Assembly (NCBI GenBank): GCA_020059465.1
Contig: JAGVBZ010000020.1
Coordinates: forward strand, 1 to 64,000
Direction of reading: 5' to 3'
Origin: Brevinematales bacterium
GTDB taxonomy: Bacteria; Spirochaetota; Brevinematia; Brevinematales; GWF1-51-8
DNA length: 64,000 nt
This document shows positions 10,320 through 35,644 of the stretch, piece by piece. Each line of letters begins with the position of its first letter. Position 1 is the stretch's first letter. Under the pieces are notes generated by a model. It was not told where the DNA came from, made no database searches, and saw only the letters and a program-made list of their open reading frames with translations. The position numbers were made by a program, and so were the translations under genes.

Positions 10320-10522
10320 AGTATCTCCTTTGTCTATAAATAATACCCGGGGTACCGTAAGAACCAGTTTCTCCGGGCCCAAAATTTAGGTGGGTTTCCG
10401 CGTCCCGGCTTCGTGTATCCCTCGCAGGAGAGATGCAATTCCGCCGGAAGTAAAGAATCCCGTTAGAGTATATGTAGACCCCGAAATATGCGGTCTACAC
10501 GAATACCCCAGGCCTATTATTT

Positions 10523-23489: not shown

Positions 23490-23612
23490 CCCAGCCTCCG
23501 ATATCAGTGTTAATATTATAACAAACGGGGATAAAAAAAGCGACACGCGCGGGTGAATTATTTTATGGGCAGTTCTAAAAACCAATTGGAGTCATTTAAA
23601 AAAACACTCTTC

Positions 23613-23822
23613 ATTTCTTTCTGAACGGCCAGAAAGAAATGAAGCAAAGAAAGAGCCGCCGCGCTGATAAAGCTTAGGAGAAAAACCGGAAAATCAGAGT
23701 CGGGCGCAACTCGCATGTAAACTCTGTGTGAAGTGAAAGCGAGCCTGCATCGCACATGCGCCCTTGGTCGGATTTTCCGGTAGTAAAAAGCGCTTTATAA
23801 TGCGCGGACTAAACAGCCGAAA
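23613..23822 (+). repeat. ~210-bp structured dispersed element, copy A
   Basis: Hairpin ATTTCTTTCTG/CAGAAAGAAAT, nested stems CCGCGC/GCGCGG, ATAAAGC/GCTTTAT and CCGGAAAATC/GATTTTCCGG, tail AAACAGCCGAA. Confidence 0.8.
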
Positions 23823-23847
23823 GACATAATTCTTTAGGGGATTTGTA

Positions 23848-24062
23848 TTTGGCTGTTCTCTCCCGCCGCTGTGACGTGACTTTTGCTAAGCGAAACGGAA
23901 AGAACCGCCGTCTGTTCGAGCCTTGCTTTATCGCGCTTAGTAATTTCTTCGCGGCGAGTTACAGCGTTTCCCGTTTCGCGCTCCTGTGCTTTGGAGCGTC
24001 ATTTCGGCGGAGAACCTCTTTCTTTCGTTCTTTCTTTCTGGGTTCGCAGAAAGAAAGAACGA
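23848..24062 (-). repeat. ~215-bp structured dispersed element, copy C (inverted)
   Basis: Same layout on the minus strand: GTTCTTTCTTTCTG hairpin, CCGCCG/CGGCGG, TGACG/CGTCA, GCGAAACGG/CCGTTTCGC, tail GAACAGCCAAA. Confidence 0.7.
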
Positions 24063-24317
24063 AGGCTTTTTGTATTCTAAAGGAGTTTTTGAAACTCCCC
24101 TTATGAAGTACTATTGGATGTAGTTAACGTCTTACATTAAGGTATGTTTCTATTTCTGTTCCAACTCGAACAGGTCGCCCCGCTTCTGTACATCCATGTA
24201 CCCGCGGTACTTCTCACATCCTGTGAGTCGCGGATATTGTAAAAATACTTTATGCATATATATTTATATTACTGTATTATGATTACCAATTAATTTAATT
24301 CACGAATTAGAACAGGA

Positions 24318-27143
24318 TTACGTCTCCATCTCGAACAGGTCGCGGATATCTTCCCATGTCATCTTCTTGATGAACGTCGCGTCCTTATCGAGCATATTGT
24401 CGAATATGACGCGTTTTTTCTCCTGAAGGCGCGCGATCTTTTCCTCTATAGTGCCCTGCGTCATCAGCCGATACACGTGCACGACGTTGACCTGCCCGAT
24501 ACGGTGCGCGCGGTCGATCGCCTGGTTCTCCACAGCGGGATTCCACCACGGGTCGAAAAGGATGACTGCGTCCGCGCCGATCAGGTTCAGCCCGGTTCCC
24601 CCCGCGCGGAGGGAGATCAGGAATACCGGCACGTCCGAACGGTTGAACCTGTCCACCAGTTCCACACGGTCCTTCGTTTCGCCGTCGAGATACAGGTAGT
24701 CGATCTGGTTCTTGGAGAGTTCCTTCCGCAGGATTTTGAGCATCTGCACGAACTGGCTGAATACGAGCACTCGGTGCCCGCTGTCCATCGCTTCCTCGAG
24801 CAGTTCCACTAGCGCGTTCGTCTTGACCGATATTTCCTCGCTGTCGAGGTCGATCAGTTCGGGGTTGACCAGCCCCGGGTGGAGACATATCTGGCGGAGA
24901 CGGGTGAGCGCGGCGAGGAAATCGATATACGACCCCTCGATACCCTTCTTCTCGATCACCGAGTACAAATTGTTCCGCACCTTCGACAGTGTCTCGAGGT
25001 AAAGCGCCTTCTGGCGTTCGGTGAGTTCCATACTGACGGACTGCTCGATTTTGTCGGGGAGTTCCTTGATGACCGCCGACTTGGTACGACGGATAATGAA
25101 CGGGTGAATCATCTTGCGGAGCTTATTGACCGCGATCGTCCGCTCGTTCCGGTCGAACCCGTTGATAGGGATCTCGAACGATTTCTTGAACCATCCGTAA
25201 TGCCCCAGAAAAGACGGCATCACGAAATCGAAGATCGACCACAGCTCGGTAACATTGTTCTCGATCGGCGTACCCGTAATAGCGATACGGTGGCGCGAAA
25301 GAATGTCCTTGATACTCTGGGTGCGCTTGGCGGACTTGTTTTTTATATGCTGGGCCTCGTCGAGGATGCAGTAATTGAATTCGATGCTGCGGTACTCCTC
25401 GATATCGAGGTGGACAAGGTAATAGGATGTGATCGCGATGTCGTAGCTTGAGATTTCCGCGATCTTCGCGGTACGCTGGGATTTATTCCCGTCGACGACC
25501 ACCCACGACAGTTCGTCCGGGAAGAATTTTTTTATTTCCGCGACCCAGTTGTATGTCAGCGAACTGGGGCAGACGATGAGCGCCGGGCCGTTCCCTTTAA
25601 TAGTGTAAAGGTGTGTCAGCATCTGTACGGTTTTACCGAGACCCATTTCGTCCGCGAGGATCCCCCCGAAATGGAACGTATTGAGGAAATGAAGCCAGTC
25701 CGCGCCGAGTTTCTGGTAATTTCGCAGGATATGGGATATCCGTCCGGGGAGTTTGACCTTTTTTATCGAACGGTCGGCGTTCAATTCTTTCGGAAATTCC
25801 TTGAGGGCGCCGGGAAGTTCGGTCTTGATCGATTCCTGCAGGAGCCGGGGCAGGTTGAAACGGCGCATCCGCCATTTACCCGACATCTTGCGGATATCGA
25901 TCTCGTCCAGCAAATCTTTGACGAACGACAGTTCTTTCTCGCCGAGGCTGACAATCCTGTTCCCTTTGCGGACAAATCCGTGACGGAGTATCTCGTGAAG
26001 CTCGTTGAGCATCAGCATGATATCCCCGATCTGAAACTGGAAGTCCACTCCCAGCCAATCGATCGAACTGCCGTCGCCGGACGGGATTTGTTCCTCGTCG
26101 GTGATTTTTATCCGGCGTTCGGAAATCTGCCCGCTGACTATTTCTATAGTTTCGTCGCCCTCAATAATCTCGACAATATCCTGCACTTTCGGGAAAAACT
26201 TCTGGAACAGGTTTTCGTTATCGCGGGTCTCTATTTTATTGGTCTCAATCTCATTCAGGAACTCGAAGAAGTTCGAATAAACCTCGTTGACTACCGTCCT
26301 GATCTGCTGGTAAAACTCGGTATCCGGCGATATCAGCACGACCTCGTTTTCGCCGCACGGCAGGATTATTTCCTCGGACAGCAGGATCGCTTTACGGAGT
26401 TCGGGGAAATTCAACGGGCATTCGCGGTCTCCGGTATTCAGGAACCCCGCGACTGAATAAAAATCCTTTTCGGCTTTAAAACGGAAGCGTATTTTACGTT
26501 CGGCGATTGTGCGCACCTGGGGGAGTTCAATCATACGATCGATAAATTTCGCGCGGTCGCGCTTGGTGGTAAACAGCTTGATTTTCAACTCCGGGGAAAT
26601 AGGCGCGGCTCCTTCGCGGAAAAGCGTCTCGAGCATTTCGTCGCTTACCGGGGAGGTCAGAGGACGGATGGTTTCTTCGCTGATGAGAAGGTTGCCGGCG
26701 TTCGTCGGAAGAAGGATATTGTTCGCCGGGGACGGCAGTACAAGACTGTTCAGTTCATTATTAAAGAGGAGCCGCAGTGTATAGGTCTCCTCGTCAAAAC
26801 TGATACGGCGCTTCTTTTCGTTGATAATAAACCGCGCGCTGAATTTCAGCAGGGTATGGAGAAAATAAAAATCGACAGGAGTCCCGATCAGCAGGGTTTT
26901 TGCGTCGGGCTTCCCGATCAGCGTCTGGCGGTAATTCTTAAAATACCGGATGAAATTGGAGATCTCAAGCGGAACCTCCGAAAAATCGTCGAAAAACTCC
27001 AGCGAGAGTTCCTCGTTCTCGACCGTAGAAAGAATATAGCGCTGCAGAAGGGAGTTATCGGAGGATAGTGAGATTTTCAATTCACGCGCCAACTGTTTAT
27101 CGGTTAGGATTTCAACTGTAATATTCAGATCGTATAATTTCAC
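24318..27143 (-). CDS. SNF2-family DEAD/DEAH-box helicase
   Basis: 'GGILADEMGLGKTVQMLTHLY', 'LDEAQHIKN', 'FSQFVQML', 'LRAGGTGLNLIGADAVILFDPWWNPAVENQAIDRAHRIGQ'. Confidence 0.95.
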   Translation of the reverse strand: MKLYDLNITVEILTDKQLARELKISLSSDNSLLQRYILSTVENEELSLEFFDDFSEVPLEISNFIRYFKNYRQTLIGKPDAKTLLIGTPVDFYFLHTLLKFSARFIINEKKRRISFDEETYTLRLLFNNELNSLVLPSPANNILLPTNAGNLLISEETIRPLTSPVSDEMLETLFREGAAPISPELKIKLFTTKRDRAKFIDRMIELPQVRTIAERKIRFRFKAEKDFYSVAGFLNTGDRECPLNFPELRKAILLSEEIILPCGENEVVLISPDTEFYQQIRTVVNEVYSNFFEFLNEIETNKIETRDNENLFQKFFPKVQDIVEIIEGDETIEIVSGQISERRIKITDEEQIPSGDGSSIDWLGVDFQFQIGDIMLMLNELHEILRHGFVRKGNRIVSLGEKELSFVKDLLDEIDIRKMSGKWRMRRFNLPRLLQESIKTELPGALKEFPKELNADRSIKKVKLPGRISHILRNYQKLGADWLHFLNTFHFGGILADEMGLGKTVQMLTHLYTIKGNGPALIVCPSSLTYNWVAEIKKFFPDELSWVVVDGNKSQRTAKIAEISSYDIAITSYYLVHLDIEEYRSIEFNYCILDEAQHIKNKSAKRTQSIKDILSRHRIAITGTPIENNVTELWSIFDFVMPSFLGHYGWFKKSFEIPINGFDRNERTIAVNKLRKMIHPFIIRRTKSAVIKELPDKIEQSVSMELTERQKALYLETLSKVRNNLYSVIEKKGIEGSYIDFLAALTRLRQICLHPGLVNPELIDLDSEEISVKTNALVELLEEAMDSGHRVLVFSQFVQMLKILRKELSKNQIDYLYLDGETKDRVELVDRFNRSDVPVFLISLRAGGTGLNLIGADAVILFDPWWNPAVENQAIDRAHRIGQVNVVHVYRLMTQGTIEEKIARLQEKKRVIFDNMLDKDATFIKKMTWEDIRDLFEMET

Positions 27144-34291: not shown

Positions 34292-34301
34292 ATTGATTCT
34301 A

Positions 34302-34510
34302 CTTTCTTTCTGTCACCAGAAAGAAAGCTAGCAAAGAAAGAGTGTCCGCGCCAGATAAAGCTTAGTAGTAAAGCAGGGAAATCCGATTCGGGCGTAACTT
34401 GCATGAAATGCCCGCACAAAACGAAAGAAGGGTGTGCATCGGACAAACGCCCTCGGTCGGATTTCCCGGAAGCAAGAATCGCTTTAAAAAGCGCGGAGAA
34501 ACAGCCAAAA
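34302..34510 (+). repeat. ~209-bp structured dispersed element, copy B
   Basis: CTTTCTTTCTG/CAGAAAGAAAG hairpin, CCGCGC/GCGCGG, TAAAGC/GCTTTA, GGGAAATCCGA/TCGGATTTCCC, tail AACAGCCAAA. Confidence 0.8.
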
Positions 34511-34792: not shown

Positions 34793-35644
34793 ATGGATTT
34801 TTCAGAGGAAATAAAAAGAATAAGCGAGGAATATGAATCAATAGGATATTATAAATCTCTTGATTTTGAAAAAGTAAAAAATGAATTGATAATACCGTAC
34901 CTTAAAGTATTATACAATCCAGCAACAAATGAACAAACCATACAAGAATGGTTAGAACAGCATACAGAATTAATACCTATGCCTATTGATAATGGTCATG
35001 GATTATATTTAGAATTTGTTATATCCAAATTTAAAATTGGAAATTATTTAATCACAGATTTCGCATATTTGACAAAAAATTCAGATTCATGGAAATTTGT
35101 ACTAATAGAACTTGAAAATCCACGTTATTCAATTTTTACTAAAAATGAAAAGAACCCAAAATTTTCTGAAAAATTTAATAAGGCATATGATCAGGTATCA
35201 AATTGGATTGGTTATATAAATGAAAATAAGAATGAAGTAGTAAAAAACATAGAAAGATTTTTAAGACCCATGGGAATAAAAAAATTAGAATTTAATTATG
35301 TATTATTATTTGGAAACAGAGAGGAAATACAATCTAATCATAGAAAACAAGATATGTGGGTTGAAAAAGGTAAAGGGGATATAAAACTAATACATTACAA
35401 TTCATTATATACTTCATCAAATCTTGATCTATTTATAGAAAAAGATATATTAAGTCATGAAGCAGATACCTTTAAATTGAAATATTTACATAGTATACTC
35501 GGACTTTTAAAATATCTGAAAAATGATGAAATATTCATTGATAAAAAATTTGATACAATAATAAGAGATATGGGAATAGATATTGATACATGGAGAAAGG
35601 GTCATTTATTAAGCGGAACATGGAGAGCTGGAAAAATGGTATAG
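34793..35644 (+). CDS. Shedu-like (DUF4263-like) putative nuclease
   Basis: 'TIQEWLEQHTELIPMP', 'ITDFAYLT', 'FVLIELENPRYSIF', 'AYDQVSNWIGYI', 'NYVLLFGNREEI...LIHYNSLYT': Shedu-type order of motifs; strongly AT-rich. Confidence 0.7.
   Translation: MDFSEEIKRISEEYESIGYYKSLDFEKVKNELIIPYLKVLYNPATNEQTIQEWLEQHTELIPMPIDNGHGLYLEFVISKFKIGNYLITDFAYLTKNSDSWKFVLIELENPRYSIFTKNEKNPKFSEKFNKAYDQVSNWIGYINENKNEVVKNIERFLRPMGIKKLEFNYVLLFGNREEIQSNHRKQDMWVEKGKGDIKLIHYNSLYTSSNLDLFIEKDILSHEADTFKLKYLHSILGLLKYLKNDEIFIDKKFDTIIRDMGIDIDTWRKGHLLSGTWRAGKMV

Follow-up and report, generated by a model that had tools for sequence, protein, structure and literature searches.

A patchily distributed repeated DNA element with structured, mostly convergent arms in a Brevinematales bacterium

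In this work, three structured segments in a window of 64,000 nucleotides (positions 1 to 64,000 of contig JAGVBZ010000020.1 of a Brevinematales bacterium) were found to belong to a repeated DNA element with a patchy distribution. Arm A (23609–23814, + strand) and arm C (23855–24061, – strand) face each other, and arm B (34298–34503, + strand) stands alone. With moderate confidence, we favor the explanation that the element is a MITE-like mobile non-coding DNA element whose arms would fold as single-stranded triplex-pseudoknots.

The preliminary description of the window had regarded A, B, and C as one family, each with a hairpin, a purine linker, nested stems, and an AACAGCC tail. All of these parts were found in their places in the three segments, and a single covariance model matches each segment end to end (cmsearch E 5e-43 to 4e-41). 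The model was made from 19 copies from the window's own genome, namely A, B, and C and 16 from elsewhere in it, and its E-values, which rest on a short calibration, are 4.2e-41 for arm A (subtype I, 151.6 bits), 3.8e-41 for arm C (subtype II, 151.7 bits), and 5.4e-43 for the solo arm B (subtype I, 158.3 bits). A genome-wide search, as had been advised, gave about 24 full copies of the arm in the 3.19-Mb draft genome and 29–59 model matches in each of three congeners, and of 37 further genomes from the order, class, and phylum, only 5 matched the model, each weakly; all of these genomes are drafts, and several hosts are metagenome bins in which contigs can be misassigned. No Rfam family matches the element at the gathering threshold, and when the A/C region was scanned at a low threshold, all matches were sub-threshold and to unrelated families. 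No similarity to the element was found in phages or E. coli, nor to arm B in plasmids. A literature search by sequence string did not find the element, and as it covered open-access papers alone, this is weak evidence of novelty. The sole Rfam match of the window at the gathering threshold is a 6S RNA at 10340–10517 (– strand).

The fold of the arm is reflected in both folding strength and covariation. Folding of A, B, and C is stronger than that of 200 shuffles (z –3.9 to –5.4). Among 101 distinct arms, 84% of the pairs are standard, against 69.5% after shuffling, both sides have changed at 36 pairs, and the covariation score is 0.328 compared with 0.123, although the shuffle tests leave the relatedness among arms in place. 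Furthermore, sliding the structure by one to three columns lowers the score to at most 0.122. The earlier claim that stem sequences differ while pairing is kept is thus borne out. On the + strand of arm A, sequence and folding place the P1 hairpin at 23609–23644, with the loop AACGGC at 23624–23629. It is followed by the purine linker CAAAGAAAGA (23645–23654), which sequence and third-strand covariation suggest as a third strand, and by the predicted pseudoknot strand GCCG (23655–23658), whose partner, from sequence and covariation, is the loop portion CGGC at 23626–23629. The nested stems occupy 23659–23807 and, according to sequence, folding, and covariation, include P2 (23659–23664 with 23802–23807), P3 (23667–23673 with 23792–23798), and P4 (23686–23695 with 23771–23780), while the core loop AACTCGC / TCGCACA lies at 23708–23714 and 23750–23756 (sequence and folding). 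In arm C (– strand), the P1 hairpin at 24026–24061 was placed by sequence and folding, and its loop CGAACC has, by sequence and the pseudoknot test, the partner GGTTC, the reverse complement of 24012–24016. In arm B (+ strand), the stretch from the P1 hairpin through the linker to the pseudoknot strand covers 34302–34344, with the loop bases CAC opposite GTG at 34342–34344. GC-rich short palindromes seem to have been inserted within the linker (CAAAGAA|CCCCGCACAAGAATGCGGGACAAGC) of the arms at L109, L110, L111, L116, and L118 and within the P1 hairpin of those at L095, L096, L099, L113, and L121, as if a second small repeat targets the arm.

The bases right after the purine linker are complementary to the 5' hairpin loop, and an H-type pseudoknot is predicted, with the pairings CGGC/GCCG in A, CAC/GTG in B, and GAACC/GGTTC in C. 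Watson-Crick complementarity of at least 3 nt between loop and tail is present in 83 of the 85 distinct genus arms with a readable hairpin, compared with a mean of 37 and a maximum of 48 when the tails were redealt (500 shuffles). Across phyla, 175 of 244 cells are paired, against 86 ± 7.7 after shuffling (61 distinct loop/tail combinations). Moreover, the linker AAAGAAAG is the mirror of the hairpin's purine strand, as in a class II intrastrand triplex. Where the inner pair is T-A, AAAGAAAG is followed by A in 50/50 arms, and where it is C-G, in 0/13 (28/28 and 0/11 among distinct arms, p 6e-10), a pattern that would fit an extra A·A-T triad, with a statistic weakened by relatedness. The third-strand covariation, like the wobble counts given below, comes from related sequences and could partly mirror descent. 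The linker would also be compatible with an A-rich minor-groove RNA pseudoknot.

A similar layout is known from the PIT elements, i.e., the BoxC / TMECO motif, which are repeated in bacterial genomes and consist of a pyrimidine stretch, a loop, a purine stretch, a short spacer, and a second purine stretch in the class II purine motif of an intrastrand triplex (PMC4666352). Their Y - R - R order with a mirror-symmetric third strand is found in the present arm by sequence and third-strand covariation. On the other hand, the motif is GGGNGAGGG in the PIT elements and AAAGAAAG in the present arms, which in addition have the loop-to-tail pseudoknot and a long structured body with a conserved core, stand in convergent pairs, and occur in several phyla. 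Purine-motif triplexes were reported to be unable to form in RNA, and the triplex repeats block DNA polymerase in vitro and are without promoter or terminator activity (PMC4666352). By analogy, this combination of polymerase block without promoter or terminator activity may be a lead for the role of the arms.

Arms A and C had been described as an inverted pair of copies. They do face each other, but they are not independent, being two arms of one unit, as is evident from the outer terminal repeats. They also differ in subtype, A being of subtype I and C of subtype II. This MITE-like unit of 534 bp (23567–24100) was delimited by terminal inverted repeats with identical TTAT outside them. The left repeat GGGCAGTTCTAAAAACC (23567–23583, + strand) is IS5-type, with one mismatch to GGGNNGTTCTAAAAACT, and the right repeat is GGGGAGTTTCAAAAACTC (24083–24100, – strand). 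Inspection of the flanks, which had been recommended, identified TTAT target-site duplications at 23563–23566 and 24101–24104 (both + strand). Because IS5-type terminal repeats occur together with a 4-bp duplication, the A/C unit appears to have moved as a MITE, and its mobility is well supported. The arms of the genus mostly form convergent pairs of subtype I and subtype II, about 450 bp from hairpin to hairpin, and exact 4-bp duplications are present in 9 of the 21 genus units bearing A/C-type terminal repeats. The alignment to congener G002 ends at window position 23569, the left end of the unit; a clean empty site was not found in the congeners, where the left junction is clean and the right flank differs.

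Judging from its repeats, the A/C subfamily is carried as an IS5-type MITE, since the same repeats (GGGNNGTTCTAAAAACT-type) are present on both sides of a G002 ORF with DDE_Tnp_1 and DUF772 and around other small elements. The enzyme for the A/C unit is thus likely an IS5-family DDE transposase, known in congeners with the same terminal repeats. A relative of the IS5-type transposase in G001 has an internal stop, and no match to such a transposase was obtained in the draft of the window's own genome. MITEs often outlast their source IS, so the missing transposase lowers only the claim of current mobility. Terminal inverted repeats as in the IS5-type IS of the congener, a 4-bp target duplication, and the lack of a coding gene are shared with IS5-family MITEs, from which the A/C unit differs in bearing two long structured arms that are found elsewhere without these repeats. 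Arms of the other subfamilies are without the IS5-type repeats, no outer repeats are common to 18 other arm pairs, no terminal inverted repeats were seen around arm B, and an autonomous element bearing these arms was not found. Four loci with genes between convergent arms (L283, L311, L339, L347) were considered as autonomous units and contain ordinary genes only; an aldehyde dehydrogenase was recognized by eye in L283 and a transporter in L339. The same-strand arm case L314 also has ordinary genes.

Other small repeats were observed as well. G002 has a second MITE family of about 200–265 bp with IS5-type terminal repeats and no arms (L406, L407, L408, L412, L413). The 3' end of an SNF2-like gene (CTCGAACAGGTCGC) recurs nearby in the window (24155–24180 and 24318–24346), and in G001 and G002 a repeat of it, about 29 bp long, surrounds inserted genes (L451, L452), which makes it a possible integration site. 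Another repeat, GGGGTATCCCTAATT or near it, adjoins genus arms at L097, L098, and L100.

The element also recurs in distant bacteria. A short linker pattern gave many A-rich chance matches on viral contigs, and therefore a stricter pattern of hairpin and linker was used for the cross-phylum search of GTDB genomes, in which the counts are lower bounds and the organisms named are those found first. The strict pattern has over 120 occurrences. Its hosts include Caballeronia, Paraburkholderia, and Burkholderia, in which there are convergent pairs about 450–530 bp apart, as well as Lysobacter, Neisseria, Xanthomonas, Selenomonadales, Chitinophaga, Uhrbacteria, and Ruminococcus. Convergent arms with the module of hairpin, linker, and pseudoknot are present in Pseudomonadota and Patescibacteria too, and the module alone in Bacillota, Bacteroidota, and Fusobacteriota, the last including a plasmid that bears it. 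The module count per genome reaches 275 (143 + 132), and the reversed-pattern control gave zero. In Spirochaetota, the module was detected in 12 of 296 genomes and 5 of 138 genera, and this patchy pattern fits horizontal spread. In Ralstonia (56.6 bits) and other Burkholderiales, the alignment to the own-genome model continues through the body. Of 130 arms, 18 have the core AACTC ... CTCRRACA downstream and none has it upstream, and the stem around the core has a mean of 6.9 pairs compared with 1.6 after shuffling (19 distinct cores). Many arms of other genera have the module only, so that, of the two, the body varies more. In one genome, long CAAAGG and CAACAG simple repeats lie between convergent arms (L343, 2580–2990). 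At L314 (65–535), an ORF across the module reads KKVTNKNSAKKVTNK, and hence some of the small proteins in annotations may be translations of repeat arms.

The preliminary description had proposed a selected fold, either as an ncRNA or as mobile, MITE-like DNA. The conserved fold is upheld by the covariation, and the MITE-like mobility by the terminal inverted repeats with 4-bp duplications and the patchy distribution, whereas the ncRNA part finds neither a wobble asymmetry nor a matching Rfam family. The alternative that survives best, which we nevertheless consider improbable, is that the arm is a structured RNA (an ncRNA or a 3' UTR element), whose 5' pseudoknot would be met first in read-through transcripts, with the mRNA being stabilized or ended. 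Pseudoknots with A-rich linkers are classic folds of RNA, the stems and the pseudoknot covary, the arms face inward so that both flanking transcripts meet the forward fold, and some copies, such as arm B, lie just past stop codons. However, the well-aligned arm stems contain 46 G·U against 66 A·C (12 against 16 in subtype I, 34 against 50 in subtype II), while tRNA stems from the same loci contain 13 G·U against 2 A·C, and so the arms lack the one-stranded bias toward G·U rather than A·C that is expected of a functional RNA. An earlier subtype-blind wobble count on a rougher alignment was mixed by helix and is superseded by the subtype alignments. In addition, folding is slightly better for the reverse strand than for the forward strand, in line with base composition, and both strands of arm B fold equally well with DNA parameters. 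The wobble counts and the reverse-strand folding argue against selection on one RNA strand. Thus, the fold is more likely one of DNA than of RNA, because G·U is no commoner than A·C, unlike in tRNA. Compensatory stem changes alone are no proof of RNA, and the wobble test points in the opposite direction here.

Arm B lies directly 3' of the polA stop codon. G002 has another arm at the same place, with a different hairpin, pseudoknot, and apical loop that are still complementary, and G003 has no arm at the polA site. This would mean either two insertions at one hot spot or segments exchanged in place. About 290 bp past arm B, a gene at window positions 34793–35644 was recognized to encode a Shedu SduA C-terminal domain (PF14082, E 7.7e-22), and the product is a probable anti-phage defence protein. 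The different hairpin and loop of the G002 arm would also be expected if there were no selection on the fold and template-switch (quasipalindrome) correction during replication copied one strand of a palindrome onto the other, and the near-perfect Watson-Crick stems without wobble bias agree with this. We consider such an origin unlikely, as cross-phylum conservation extends to the linker and the unpaired bases of the core, and the pseudoknot pairing is no simple palindrome.

Slightly less probable still is a bidirectional intrinsic terminator, in which outward-reading P1 hairpins followed by T-rich sequence would end transcription. T-rich tails do follow the outward P1 at 24022–24065 (+ strand) and 23644–23609 (– strand), but three terminator-like sites against 1.2 expected is a weak excess, the P1 of arm B is not terminator-like, and related triplex elements are without terminator activity (PMC4666352). 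Furthermore, a terminator leaves the pseudoknot, the core loop, and the cross-phylum conservation unexplained. A REP-like element, on whose folded single strand an IS200/IS605 or RAYT Y1 transposase would act, is very doubtful despite the subterminal hairpins, the dispersed intergenic copies, and the DNA-level fold, since Y1 transposase (PF01797) is absent from the window's genome and from G001 and G002, with one match in G003, the arms are inverted rather than same-strand hairpins, and the terminal repeats of the A/C unit are DDE-type and come with a 4-bp duplication. G005 has five PF01797 matches, and reverse transcriptase (PF00078) was found in 0 of 13 genomes; the search for either enzyme acting in trans, suggested previously, hence came out negative for the window's genome. 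REP/BIME, BOX, and ERIC repeats are intergenic, hairpin-rich, and present in many, mosaic copies, and in all of this the arms resemble them. Unlike these repeats, the present element has a pseudoknot and a core conserved across phyla and a much longer unit, and there is no Y1 transposase in its genome.

To return to the favored MITE-like DNA element, we hypothesize that a single strand of the arm would form the T/C-rich hairpin, whose purine strand would take the AAAGAAAG linker as an antiparallel third strand. The pseudoknot of the hairpin loop with the bases past the linker would lock the third strand, and the nested-stem body would bear the conserved internal loop (AACTC / TCRRACA). The usual unit would consist of two convergent arms, and an IS5-family DDE transposase acting in trans would have moved, or carried, the A/C unit as a MITE. 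The single-stranded state could be provided by the lagging strand or by the excised donor. The folded arm would then stall DNA polymerase and favor template switching or exchange between copies. More tentatively, and with clear doubt on our part, the arms may represent a new class of mobile DNA in at least six phyla, with inward arms, a triplex and a loop-tail pseudoknot, a core in part of the family, and recognition as single-stranded DNA by a conserved putative factor. If true, one compact fold without an Rfam entry would be reused by repeated elements of distant bacteria, with copy numbers per genome that sometimes reach the hundreds, and would offer a clear test case for selection on single-stranded DNA folds in bacterial genomes. 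It may also explain many of the stray repeats around genes.
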